A stretch of DNA of 34,205 nt from contig PETN01000052.1 in NCBI GenBank assembly GCA_002781365.1, positions 1 through 34,205 on the forward strand. Reading direction: 5' to 3'. A model generated the notes under the pieces. That model ran no database searches and was not told the DNA's origin. It was given only the letters and a program-made list of their open reading frames with translations. Below, piece after piece: positions 31,292 to 34,205 of this stretch. Source of the DNA: Sulfurimonas sp. CG01_land_8_20_14_3_00_36_23 (GTDB lineage: Bacteria > Campylobacterota > Campylobacteria > Campylobacterales > Sulfurimonadaceae). Position numbers and translations under genes: made by a program. Each line of letters opens with the position of its first letter. Position 1 is the stretch's first letter.

Positions 31292-32614
31292 TTATAAAAC
31301 TTTTTTTATAAGTAAGTTTTCAAGGTCTTCTTGCGCATTACCAGTTAAATGTAAATTAAATGTTTGAGCTAAAAAGTGATAGATGTCTTCATTTACAAAT
31401 TGTGGTGGCTTAGGTCCTAAATAGATATCTTTGATTCCAAGACTAAATAAAGCAAGTAAAATTATCACAGCTTTTTGTTCCATCCAGCTTAAAACAATCG
31501 CTATAGGTAAATCATTTATGGGAGTGTTGAGTGCATTACTGATAGCTTTAGCAATCTCTACAGCACCATTGCTATCATTGCATTGACCTAAATCTAAATA
31601 TCTAGGAATATCAGTACCCTGAATATTTCCAAAATCTATATCATTAAATCTAAATTTTCCACAACTTGATGTAATGATTACACAGTCATTAGGAAGATTC
31701 TCTGCCATCTCTCTATAGTAATTCCCAGCACTGCCAGGCGCATCACATCCAGCAATGACAAAAAATTGAGATATTTTTCCACTTCTAATTGCTTCAAGAA
31801 TTTGTGGAGCTAAAGTCAGAATAGTTTTGTAATGGTGCCCAGTGTTTAATGTTGTAACTGCATCCCAACCATCTGCATCATCACATTGTAAGGTACGTTC
31901 TATTAATGCACTAAAATCATTCTCTTCAATTGGAGTTGAACCTTCAACCCCTACAATCTTATATGTGAAAAGTCTATCTAAATATCCACAATTACTTTTT
32001 GGTGGAACAATACAGTTTGTATTTACAACAAAAGTTCCAGGAAATGTTTTCATTACATCTGCTTGGTCAAACCATGCTTTACCGACATTACCTTTTAAAT
32101 GCGAATATTTTCTAAGTTCTGGATATCCATGCGCAGGTAACATCTCTGAGTGCGTATATACATTTATACCTTTACCTTCTGTAGCTTTTAAAAGCGCTTC
32201 AAACATCTCTAGGTTATGACCACTTACAAGAATAGCTTTCCCTTCTACTCTGTTCTGTGAGACTGTTACTGGTGTTGGGATACCAAATTTACTAGTGTGC
32301 GCATTACTAAGTTTGTCCATAACTTCTACCCCAGCAGAACCTACTTTCATGAGCTGGTTTATGTGATTATCAAAGTTAAAGTTTACATTAGTAAGTGTAA
32401 AGTAGAGTGTTTCACTCATTACATCATCTAGCCTTTTTGTCTGAGTAGGTTCTAGTTCGTTTAAGTGCTCTCTGTATGCGGATAGACCTTTGAGTCCAAA
32501 TACCATTATATCTTGAAGTCTTGCCAAGTTTTCATCTTTTCCACAAGTTCCGACACTTGCTCCTGTACTTCCACACCCATTGGGTGAACTCATTTCACAT
32601 TGATAACAAAACAT
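31292..32614 (-). CDS. hcp: Hybrid cluster protein (hydroxylamine/NO reductase) Hcp
   Basis: Fe-S/oxo protein of the cytoplasm linked to nitric oxide and hydroxylamine detoxification. The N-terminal FeS ligands are Cys3, Cys6, Cys14 and Cys24 (spacing 2, 7 and 9). Hybrid-cluster ligand regions are seen in VSGHNLEMFEAL, NTNCIVPPK, IAGCDAPGS, TSSCGKFRFND, DLGQCNDSN and the late SWMEQKAV with Glu and Lys. At 440 residues it lacks an insert of about 110 residues present in E. coli Hcp, as in class III proteins. AAAGGAG precedes the ATG. Upstream is a palindromic CRP/FNR-type site about 41 bases from a predicted start of transcription. Confidence 0.93.
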   Translation of the reverse strand: MFCYQCEMSSPNGCGSTGASVGTCGKDENLARLQDIMVFGLKGLSAYREHLNELEPTQTKRLDDVMSETLYFTLTNVNFNFDNHINQLMKVGSAGVEVMDKLSNAHTSKFGIPTPVTVSQNRVEGKAILVSGHNLEMFEALLKATEGKGINVYTHSEMLPAHGYPELRKYSHLKGNVGKAWFDQADVMKTFPGTFVVNTNCIVPPKSNCGYLDRLFTYKIVGVEGSTPIEENDFSALIERTLQCDDADGWDAVTTLNTGHHYKTILTLAPQILEAIRSGKISQFFVIAGCDAPGSAGNYYREMAENLPNDCVIITSSCGKFRFNDIDFGNIQGTDIPRYLDLGQCNDSNGAVEIAKAISNALNTPINDLPIAIVLSWMEQKAVIILLALFSLGIKDIYLGPKPPQFVNEDIYHFLAQTFNLHLTGNAQEDLENLLIKKVL

Positions 32615-32641: not shown

Positions 32642-32647
32642 ATTCTA
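32642..32647 (-). promoter_or_regulatory. Predicted -10 box of hcp
   Basis: On the minus strand these bases read TAGAAT. A start about 7 bases downstream would place the operator at 32670-32683 near -41.5, the class II activator position. Confidence 0.4.
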
Positions 32648-32669: not shown

Positions 32670-32683
32670 TTGACCTAGGTCAA
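32670..32683. promoter_or_regulatory. CRP/FNR-family operator upstream of hcp (TTGAC-N4-GTCAA)
   Basis: A perfect dyad TTGACCTAGGTCAA, extended to 16 bases by flanking A and T. The 5-4-5 layout matches FNR/DNR/NssR-type binding sites. It lies between the regulator gene and hcp, centred 62 bases before the hcp ATG. Confidence 0.75.
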
Positions 32684-32687
32684 TAAT

Positions 32688-33323
32688 TTATTGAAGATTT
32701 TTCTCGAGTACTTCTTGATTTAATATAGTAATAACTTTATTTTTTATAGCGATAGCGTGTGAATCTTTTAATTTTTTAATCACCCGAGATAAAGTCTCTT
32801 GTTTCATATTTAACATGGATGCTATTTTTATACGCGAGCGTTGCTCAAAAATTTCTTTATTGTAGAGTATGAGTGATACAACTCGTTGCATGGAGTTTTT
32901 TGATATATTTAAATCAATACTCTGTTCAAGTATTTTTATTTTCGTGCTCATAGAGAAGATGATTTTAAGTGCAAGGTTTGGATTATTATGAAGTGCTAGA
33001 ATGAAATCATCTTTTTTGATACTCCAAATGGTAACATCTGATTCAGCCATGCAGTTTGCAGGGTAGGGGATATCCTCAAAGGTAGCCATCTCACCTATAA
33101 GTGACTCGGCATTGAAGTAGTGCAGGAGTATCTCTTCGTCGTTACTATTATATTTATACATCTTCACACTCCCTTTAACTAGTAAGTGTAAATTCTCAGA
33201 GCTATCGCCTTTGTAAAAGATTATGTTGCCATGAGAAAATTTTTTTTCTATTATATTTCTAGAGATGTTTTGAAGTGATTGCGTGTCTACGTTTGAAAAT
33301 AGATAAAAGTTTTGTAGCTTCAT
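32688..33323 (-). CDS. CRP/FNR-family transcriptional regulator
   Basis: A 211-residue regulator: residues about 10-125 are a cyclic-nucleotide-binding-type sensor domain (GNIIFYKGDSSENLHLLVKGSVKMY, LIGEMATFEDIPYPANCMAESD), then a dimer helix and a C-terminal helix-turn-helix, IKIASMLNMKQETLSRVIKKLK. The Glu and Ser-Arg of QETLSR match the residues that read TTGA half-sites. No N-terminal Cys cluster for an FNR-type Fe-S cluster is present, so NO or redox sensing through haem (as in DNR/NssR) is more likely. It overlaps the upstream cytochrome stop by one base and precedes hcp, so it is probably the regulator of both sites. Confidence 0.9.
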   Translation of the reverse strand: MKLQNFYLFSNVDTQSLQNISRNIIEKKFSHGNIIFYKGDSSENLHLLVKGSVKMYKYNSNDEEILLHYFNAESLIGEMATFEDIPYPANCMAESDVTIWSIKKDDFILALHNNPNLALKIIFSMSTKIKILEQSIDLNISKNSMQRVVSLILYNKEIFEQRSRIKIASMLNMKQETLSRVIKKLKDSHAIAIKNKVITILNQEVLEKNLQ

Positions 33324-33739
33324 TATTGAAACTTGATTCCTTCAAAACTATCATAAAGCCATTCACTAACAGCTTGTTTCTCTCTGTCTGAGAGTTTACC
33401 TTTTTGTGAAGGCATAACACCAAACTTTTCTAAGGCCACAGCACTGCACATACTGTAATCTAGGCTTGGGTTATCAATATACTCTTTAACAAAAGCAATA
33501 ATTAATTGACGCTTTATATCATCATCGTCATCTAGCGTAATTACATTTTGTTTAAGACGATTTGAAATTTCAAGCATTGGTGGAGCTTTGAGAGTGTGCA
33601 TGTTTTTTAGCACTTGGTCTCTACTCATTTTTTCCGCATGACAAGAGGAGCATTTGTTTTTATAAACATTGTACCCCTCACTATAATCGTTGGCAAAAAT
33701 AGTTGTAGATAATAATATAGACAAGAGAAGCGTTTTCAT
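33323..33739 (-). CDS. Periplasmic cytochrome c
   Basis: A 138-residue precursor with a signal peptide (LLLSILLSTTIFA, cleavage about residue 16). The haem site is CSSCH around 30-34; FGVMPSQKG near 108-116 supplies the distal Met, and DREKQAVSEWLYD is the C-terminal helix of class I cytochromes. Two Asp-rich residues runs (DDDDD) lie in the middle. AAAAGG precedes the ATG. It is the first gene of an operon with the CRP/FNR regulator, and an FNR-like site lies 67 bases upstream; a role in electron supply under nitrosative or low-oxygen conditions is inferred from that. Confidence 0.87.
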   Translation of the reverse strand: MKTLLLSILLSTTIFANDYSEGYNVYKNKCSSCHAEKMSRDQVLKNMHTLKAPPMLEISNRLKQNVITLDDDDDIKRQLIIAFVKEYIDNPSLDYSMCSAVALEKFGVMPSQKGKLSDREKQAVSEWLYDSFEGIKFQ

Positions 33740-33799
33740 AAATGAACCTTTTCGTAAAAAATTTATTTTAAAATAGTAACCAAAAAATGAGATTTTTTA

Positions 33800-33813
33800 T
33801 TGACATATATCAA
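33800..33813. promoter_or_regulatory. FNR-like operator upstream of the cytochrome c-regulator operon
   Basis: TTGACATATATCAA on the plus strand, or TTGAT-ATAT-GTCAA on the minus strand: 5-4-5 dyad with one base of asymmetry. It lies 67 bases (centre) before the cytochrome ATG and also upstream of hsp20. Confidence 0.6.
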
Positions 33814-33883
33814 GAAATCAAACATATTTAACGCTACAACTCTTTATGCTACCTAAGGGGCAGAACTACAAAAAAATATTTTC

Positions 33884-33920: not shown

Positions 33921-34117
33921 ATGTTCGTTACACGTTATAATCCAAATAGAAATATGAGAGAATTTAGAAGAGGTTTTGACCTTATTAACAGCATGTTGGA
34001 TGATTATATGCCTGCAACTAAAAAGAGTGCTTTTGGTACAAATTTTACACCTGCTATAAATACAAGAGAGGGTGAGTTTGCATACCATGTTGAGGTAGAT
34101 TTACCAGGTATACAATA
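33921..34117 (+). pseudogene. Truncated small heat-shock protein (Hsp20/alpha-crystallin)
   Basis: The start region, MFVTRYNPNRNMREFRRGFDLIN, and the segment FTPAINTREGEFAYHVEVDLPGI are the N-terminal part and first beta-strands of Hsp20 chaperones, in which VDLPG-[IVMF]-x-K-E-D is conserved. After VDLPGI the sequence leaves the family and stops within 11 codons at 34149-34151. The alpha-crystallin domain, needed for chaperone oligomers, is therefore missing. The break is at an insertion-sequence-like end at 34118. The promoter and ribosome-binding site look intact, so the gene was functional before the insertion. Disrupted, not merely short. Confidence 0.75.
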
Positions 34118-34205
34118 TGCTACCCCAAAAAGTCAAGACAACTTTTTTTAAATCTTAATTCCCTTCATCACCTGTAACCTTATGCCACATCTTCAGCTAA
34201 TTTTA
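34118..34205. mobile_element. Insertion-sequence terminus inserted into hsp20 (partial)
   Basis: From TG at 34118 the sequence reads TGCTACCCCAAAAAGTCAAG and continues with ACAACT and a T-run. TG followed by CCCCAAAAAGT and GACA resembles terminal inverted repeats of IS3-family elements, from memory. The minus strand has an open stretch ending KLAEDVA and a stop near 34180, possibly the transposase C-terminus. The element runs off the window, so family and length are not settled. Confidence 0.5.

Follow-up and report, generated by a model that had tools for sequence, protein, structure and literature searches.

In Pseudomonas aeruginosa, the haem-dependent regulator DNR responds to NO and controls the nir, nor and nos genes. 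Control of hcp, which encodes the hybrid cluster protein, was predicted for the regulator HcpR in delta-proteobacteria, cyanobacteria and Porphyromonas (Rodionov 2005, PMC1274295). In that study, HcpR sites at hcp are given as TTGACnnnnGTCAA, two cyanobacterial genomes contain no further site of this sort, and hemerythrin- and cytochrome c-like genes often belong to HcpR regulons (PMC1274295). The HcpR protein of P. gingivalis is described as binding haem through a conserved Met, Met68 (PMC12750200). In Wolinella, nitrate, NO and N2O are the signals for NssA, NssB and NssC, whose targets are nap, nrf and nos (PMC6682613, PMC8139620, PMC12285233). A study of the Campylobacterota worked with TTGA-N6-TCAA as the consensus for Nss-type targets and found exact sites starting 48-49 bases before predicted starts (PMC11539149). 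Hcp proteins of class III are characterised by the loss of about 100 middle residues (PMC10502027).

Here we describe a locus on a contig of 34,205 bases, taken whole (the window), which belongs to a genome of 2.43 Mb in 102 contigs, rated 100% complete. Among the closest relatives that our searches gave for this genome are G220 and a MAG with the label Sulfurimonas sp. N3_29, so that the host is probably a Sulfurimonas-like campylobacterote. Judged by its genes and sites, the locus is an hcp-cytochrome-regulator system of the HcpR/Nss/DNR type of hcp control, with a cytochrome c as an added, little-described member.

Predicted promoters of a cytochrome c-regulator operon and of hcp have operators at similar positions

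All genes of the block lie on the minus strand and are transcribed in the order operator 1, cytochrome c, regulator, operator 2, hcp (Table 1). An initial sequence-only reading had reported two 14-mer palindromes, and both are present at exactly the coordinates claimed. They were also said to bracket the cytochrome, regulator and hcp genes; this holds for the cytochrome and the regulator, but hcp lies beyond the second site, outside the interval that the two sites enclose. The regulator and cytochrome genes have a stop/start overlap of 1 nt. The same reading had placed the hcp site about 41 bases from a predicted transcription start, in agreement with the predicted TAGAAT, which puts the centre of operator 2 near -41.5; TACTAT puts that of operator 1 near a predicted -40.5. 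An operator-to--10 geometry of this sort is that of a class II CRP/FNR promoter (centre at -41.5, an activator position). The site positions would favour activation over repression.

Table 1. Features of the block in order of transcription, with positions in the window.
Feature	Position	Strand or sequence	Remarks
Operator 1	33800..33813	TTGACATATATCAA, reads TTGATATATGTCAA on minus strand	Putative promoter of cytochrome c-regulator operon
Predicted -10 TACTAT of cytochrome operon	33773..33778	minus	Starts 21 nt after operator 1; prediction only
Cytochrome c gene	33323..33739	minus	Class I monohaem, 138 aa, signal-type N-terminus, CSSCH, KAPPM, Cys98, Met109
CRP/FNR-family regulator gene	32688..33323	minus	211 aa, QETLSR recognition helix, one Cys
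Operator 2 (putative hcp promoter)	32670..32683	TTGACCTAGGTCAA, perfect palindrome	4 bp past regulator stop codon
Predicted -10 TAGAAT of hcp	32642..32647	minus	Starts 22 nt after operator 2
hcp	31292..32614	minus	440 aa, class III-like hybrid cluster protein / hydroxylamine reductase

The Hcp protein resembles class III enzymes

The hcp product scores 523.8 bits against TIGR01703 (cut-off 360.8). The best of its seven PDB sequence matches is the class III Hcp of Methanothermobacter marburgensis (7e0l, full-length alignment 1-435, E = 6e-116). Matches to class I and II proteins are only partial, residue 19 onward aligning to class I residue 127-132 onward. As in the M. marburgensis enzyme, the middle region of class I/II is gone and the rest of the protein is kept, making the window Hcp about 100 residues shorter than these classes. 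It differs from that enzyme in having no rubredoxin domain and a longer Cys-rich N-terminus (C-x2-C-x7-C-x8-C, by eye). With no signal or haem motif, it is predicted to be cytoplasmic.

The regulator is a CRP/FNR-family protein with a single cysteine

The regulator combines a cNMP_binding domain (72 bits) with an HTH_Crp_2 domain (35.6 bits), and its AlphaFold model (pLDDT 87.7) has the CRP/FNR fold. Going by this model, its structural match is of the general CRP/FNR kind, DNR of P. aeruginosa (3dkw) taking rank 49 in Foldseek. By phmmer, the same structure is the best full-length bacterial PDB match (E = 5e-13); unlike DNR, the window's regulator belongs to a genome in which nosZ and NorB-type targets were not found. 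The QETLSR recognition helix and the lack of a Cys cluster noted in the sequence-only reading are both evident. Cys91 is the only cysteine and the N-terminal cluster of FNR is absent, so that no FNR-type [4Fe-4S] cluster is expected. An alignment of 31 rows contained no invariant His, Met or Cys as a haem ligand.

The arrangement is similar to that of HcpR, as a CRP/FNR protein lacking the Fe-S Cys motif adjoins hcp and a TTGACnnnnGTCAA-type site precedes hcp. It is unlike HcpR in the class III-like Hcp and in the apparent co-transcription of the regulator with a cytochrome c, judged by gene overlap. Positions 180 and 181 in CRP numbering were mapped onto the regulator by motif. On this numbering, the window protein has Gln/Glu and its relatives have Pro at the 180 equivalent, the specificity residues reported for HcpR1 being Ser/Pro at 180 and Glu at 181 (PMC1274295). 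FNR, DNR and NssR had been named together as proteins that bind TTGAY-N4-RTCAA-like sites. TTGAY sites are indeed found here, but NssR proper makes a poor model of DNA recognition, since the C. jejuni protein is reported to read TTAAC-N4-GTTAA and has A180/Q181, against Glu at 181 in the window's regulator (PMC1274295). At residue 175, which is Pro in nearly all of 30 relatives, the window's regulator has Gln; this residue stands beside the invariant Glu176, and its position is reported to determine DNA specificity (PMC1274295).

The neighbourhoods of the regulator's orthologues in G220 (53% identity) and N3_29 (55%) encode a hemerythrin, a SUF-type protein and small cytochromes c; that of G220 additionally encodes NapA and NapH. 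In G220, where no hcp was found, 18 kb contain four operators: napA, a DUF2249-like gene and the cytochrome orthologue are each preceded by one, and the fourth is close to a small cytochrome. A search of plasmid proteins returned distant CRP/FNR relatives only.

Regulators encoded within about 3 kb of hcp account for 24 rows, the window included, in a tree of 52 regulator relatives drawn from the Campylobacterales only, with no reference HcpR sequence among them. These rows require 8 state changes, at least 5 of them forced by well-supported branches. The tree therefore led us to reject a single orthologous, hcp-specific sensor, because the hcp-linked regulators are spread over several branches; as they do not form one clade, linkage to hcp identifies no single conserved sensor. 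On this phylogeny, different CRP/FNR paralogues appear to have come to adjoin hcp several times, with the type of operator unchanged.

Placement rather than number distinguishes the two sites

Motif counting was dropped as evidence, as there was no excess in the window or the genome. TTGA-N6-TCAA with at most one mismatch was found 29 times in the window (39 expected), TTGAY-N4-RTCAA 25 times across the genome (19 for the reversed pattern) and TTGAC-N4-GTCAA with at most one mismatch 62 times across the genome (65 in the control). These counts are no higher than chance and prove nothing; the significance of the sites therefore lies in their placement and conservation. The 23 strict genome sites outside the window are all inside predicted ORFs, in a sorting that covers exact TTGAY-N4-RTCAA matches. 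Among the strict sites of the genome, only the two in the window have TANNNT 21-22 nt on and, 55-60 nt on, a start codon accompanied by an RBS-like motif. A genome scan had been proposed with the sequence-only reading, for TTGAC-N4-GTCAA upstream of nitrate/NO genes; the strict TTGAY-N4-RTCAA sites are promoter-like at these two positions only. The idea of a self-contained, autoregulated regulon drew support from the sequence: operators at a class II position precede both transcription units and no further promoter-like strict copy occurs in the genome. As such an operator stands before the regulator's own operon as well as before hcp, autoregulation would follow.

The intragenic site C8:7851, with TACATT at 21 nt and an ORF at 74 nt downstream, was rejected as a promoter (no RBS, polysaccharide-type cluster by eye). 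Another intragenic strict site overlaps the start codon of a trigger-factor-like gene. Operator 2 was also rejected as a terminator hairpin: a scan found none there, and among relatives the centre of the site varies whereas TTGAY and RTCAA are constant. The variable centres at hcp argue for protein binding over an RNA hairpin.

The hcp operator is conserved in position across the order

The hcp gene was found in 76 of 298 genomes of the order and in 12 of 151 genomes of the family. We compared 83 hcp loci, made up of the window and 82 others (the 75 remaining order matches and 7 further family matches). TTGAY-N4-RTCAA is present within 300 bp upstream of hcp at 71 of the 83 loci, which are phylogenetically related and do not represent 71 independent events; the looser TTGA-N6-TCAA is present at 73, and the strict site is missing at 12. 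In the same loci, outside those upstream stretches, 19 strict sites were counted in 681,349 bases, or 0.008 per 300 bp. TANNNT lies exactly 22 nt past the operator at about 70% of the 71 loci. A second peak at 26 nt (21%) comes mostly from loci where two sites overlap at a shift of 4 bp and the second site is again 22 nt away, and each remaining offset within 10-35 nt accounts for at most 8% of loci. On this comparison, the positional conservation of the hcp operator is not a product of chance. The operator is kept at most hcp loci without a regulator within reach.

This amounts to a testable rule for the whole order, in which hcp would be read from a promoter of class II CRP/FNR type, its operator and -10 a constant 22 nt apart, whatever CRP/FNR protein is present. 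No description of such a fixed hcp promoter architecture was found in the open-access literature, which misses most subscription journals.

Two overlapping operators 4 bp apart (TTGATTGAGATCAATCAA) precede hcp in L145, L148, L149, L151-L155 and L159-L164; they may offer a choice between two positions or between two regulators. In loci L180-L188, L190, L192-L194, L196 and L197, which belong to one family, a CRP/FNR gene is near and convergent with hcp, and the operator lies at -109 to -142 from the hcp start, farther than at most other loci.

A periplasmic-type cytochrome c recurs with the same operator

The cytochrome carries CSSCH, matches cytochrome c families weakly, and its model weakly resembles cytochrome c6 (best Foldseek E = 0.03). 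The signal-type N-terminus and the CxxCH haem motif predict a periplasmic protein. Invariant in 17 aligned sequences are C30, C33, H34, KAPP (51-54), C98 and M109. Cys98, invariant in 17 of 17, lies outside the haem motif and is unusual for a small class I cytochrome c.

Relatives of the cytochrome were gathered in two sets sharing one genome (L019 = L245), giving 58 loci in combination. A strict site lies within 200 bp upstream of the cytochrome at 9 of 19 loci in one set (window included) and 15 of 40 in the other, where TANNNT follows at +22 in 14 of the 15. Taken together, 23 of the 58 relatives have a site at their own promoter (within 200 bp) and 12 more have one before the operon rather than the gene itself; 35 of 58 thus have a site at their own or operon promoter, and the remaining 23 have none at either their own promoter or that of a recognised operon. 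At 11 loci (L207, L230, L234, L240, L241, L247, L249, L255, L257, L258 and L263) the cytochrome is directly preceded by an FmdE-like gene, an assignment that is weak (PF02663, 17.6 bits, under the 22.9 cut-off). TTGAY-N4-RTCAA precedes the FmdE-like gene in 11 of 11 of these operons, making this gene a candidate new member of the regulon. In L134, L144 and L212, from families other than that of the window, hcp and the cytochrome are neighbours read in the same direction; in L134 the cytochrome is downstream of hcp, whose promoter has the operator. The cytochrome relatives L074, L075 and L076 (G191, G287 and G269, of one genus) each contain one in-frame TAG, either because they are decayed copies or because the stop lies at the very end of the match.

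Within the family, the cytochrome gene is present in 72 of 151 genomes against 12 for hcp, and both occur in 10 of the 12 hcp-bearing genomes (P = 0.010, uncorrected for kinship). The notion of an hcp-specific cytochrome is weakened by this difference in frequency, as many relatives without hcp carry the cytochrome. A role for the cytochrome as electron donor, raised as a possibility in the sequence-only reading, is unlikely where direct donation to Hcp is meant: one protein is predicted to be periplasmic and the other cytoplasmic, and the presence of the cytochrome gene in many relatives without hcp weakens the idea further. Because they would be in different compartments, the two proteins are better regarded as co-regulated than as direct redox partners.

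Nor did the open-access literature, with most subscription journals outside it, yield a description of the cytochrome itself, which appears to be a regular partner in the hcp-type stress response. Tentatively, and with rather more doubt than confidence, we suggest that this family of small haem proteins (CxxCH...KAPPM...invariant Cys...MPS) may be a standing, undescribed part of the nitrogen-oxide stress response of Campylobacterota. Whether encoded singly or in operons that also contain hcp or the gene of the FmdE-like protein or of a hemerythrin, its members would be controlled from this class II operator, and in the periplasm they would trap NO or serve as NO-reactive carriers of electrons. 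The family would persist even in genomes that no longer respire nitrate and whose regulon is down to one autoregulated block.

Nitrate, nitrite and N2O respiration genes were not found in the genome of the window

Neither napA (partial 26%-identical matches only) nor nrfA was found in the 102-contig assembly, in which a gene may nonetheless escape a search. nosZ was not found either, by a model that exceeded its cut-off in 0 of 14 control genomes. No NorB-type oxidase gene was found, ccoN being the sole COX1-family gene. With these four genes covered by the search and not found, any NO would have to come from outside.

The locus resembles the Nss systems in phylum, CRP/FNR family, TTGA-N6-TCAA sites and similar distances (PMC11539149). 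It is unlike NssA/B/C in that nap, nrf and nos targets were not found in the genome, although the locus of the G220 orthologue does have a site before napA. The regulon looks reduced to the cytochrome-regulator-hcp block, and a regulator once tied to nitrate respiration may now serve a reduced stress regulon with hcp. The window would then be a case where the response appears to be kept without the usual genes of nitrate, nitrite and N2O respiration.

A probable two-promoter stress module and its alternatives

Gene order, sites, promoter geometry, conservation and the lack of strict sites with promoter features elsewhere in the genome were observed directly. We infer the identity of the binding protein, its ligand, the direction of control (activation) and the substrate of the enzyme. 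The block is probably an autoregulated, two-promoter stress module against nitrogen oxides, whose own regulator would occupy both operators near -41 and switch on its operon and hcp. The regulator, of the HcpR/DNR/Nss kind, would be a CRP/FNR-type activator that forms homodimers and lacks an Fe-S cluster; the cytochrome c-regulator operon would supply it at a low level. Its sensor domain would meet nitrogen-oxide stress, most likely NO, perhaps via haem; NO as the signal is suggested by family resemblance and by the enzyme. Once activated, it would occupy the TTGAY-N4-RTCAA site of each promoter, centred near -41, and recruit RNA polymerase as a class II activator, raising expression of its own operon and of hcp. 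The cytoplasmic class III-like Hcp may then reduce NO or hydroxylamine, and the periplasmic monohaem cytochrome c would be a co-induced electron carrier or NO-binding protein.

Both sites could instead be used mainly by another CRP/FNR protein, the regulator gene of the block being a passenger or a second input. The genome encodes at least one further CRP/FNR-like protein (C39, 19% identity), most hcp loci keep the operator with no regulator nearby, making trans-acting control the rule in the order, and hcp-adjoining regulators come from several branches. However, both promoter-like sites flank the block's regulator gene and no other promoter-like strict site was found in the genome, as expected of a dedicated local regulator, and the recognition helix still reads Glu-Thr-Leu-Ser-Arg; we regard control by another protein as unlikely. 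The same holds for a module that would serve not NO defence but redox metabolism or the assimilation of nitrogen, with hydroxylamine reduced as in the reverse-HURM route. Hcp has been proposed as the hydroxylamine reductase in nitrate ammonification of Nautilia (PMC3701875, PMC5401914) and is described as abundant in nitrate-grown Sulfurospirillum (PMC4585668), and a report of hydroxylamine reductase outside the hydroxylamine stress response in W. succinogenes (PMC4585668) counts against the stress module. Nevertheless, with napA and nrfA not found in a search for these two, nosZ and NorB-type genes, there would be no nitrate route to feed Hcp, and the assimilatory role seems rather improbable.

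The sites might also be chance palindromes in an AT-rich genome. The counts in window and genome, no higher than in controls, speak for this, but position-specific conservation at 71 of 83 hcp loci with a constant -10 spacing, and likewise at the cytochrome promoter, speaks against it. For the class of sites a chance origin is refuted, and for the two sites of the window it is scarcely credible. Operator 1 might also drive the divergent plus-strand ORF from 33921, which we take to be an Hsp20-like small heat-shock gene, instead of or besides the cytochrome operon. On the plus strand the site is overlapped by a sigma-70-like pair at 33800-33828, and the gene starts 107 bp from operator 1. Against this, the plus strand has no TANNNT 15-30 nt after the site (the only one is at 31 nt), whereas the minus-strand spacing fits and is conserved among cytochrome relatives, leaving control of the Hsp20-like gene a slim prospect. 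Without a Pfam match, this ORF (33921-34150) loses its resemblance to Hsp20 (by eye) near 34115 and then stops, and the contig ends about 55 bases past its stop. Such a truncated ORF at the contig end suggests an inserted element or a repeat there.
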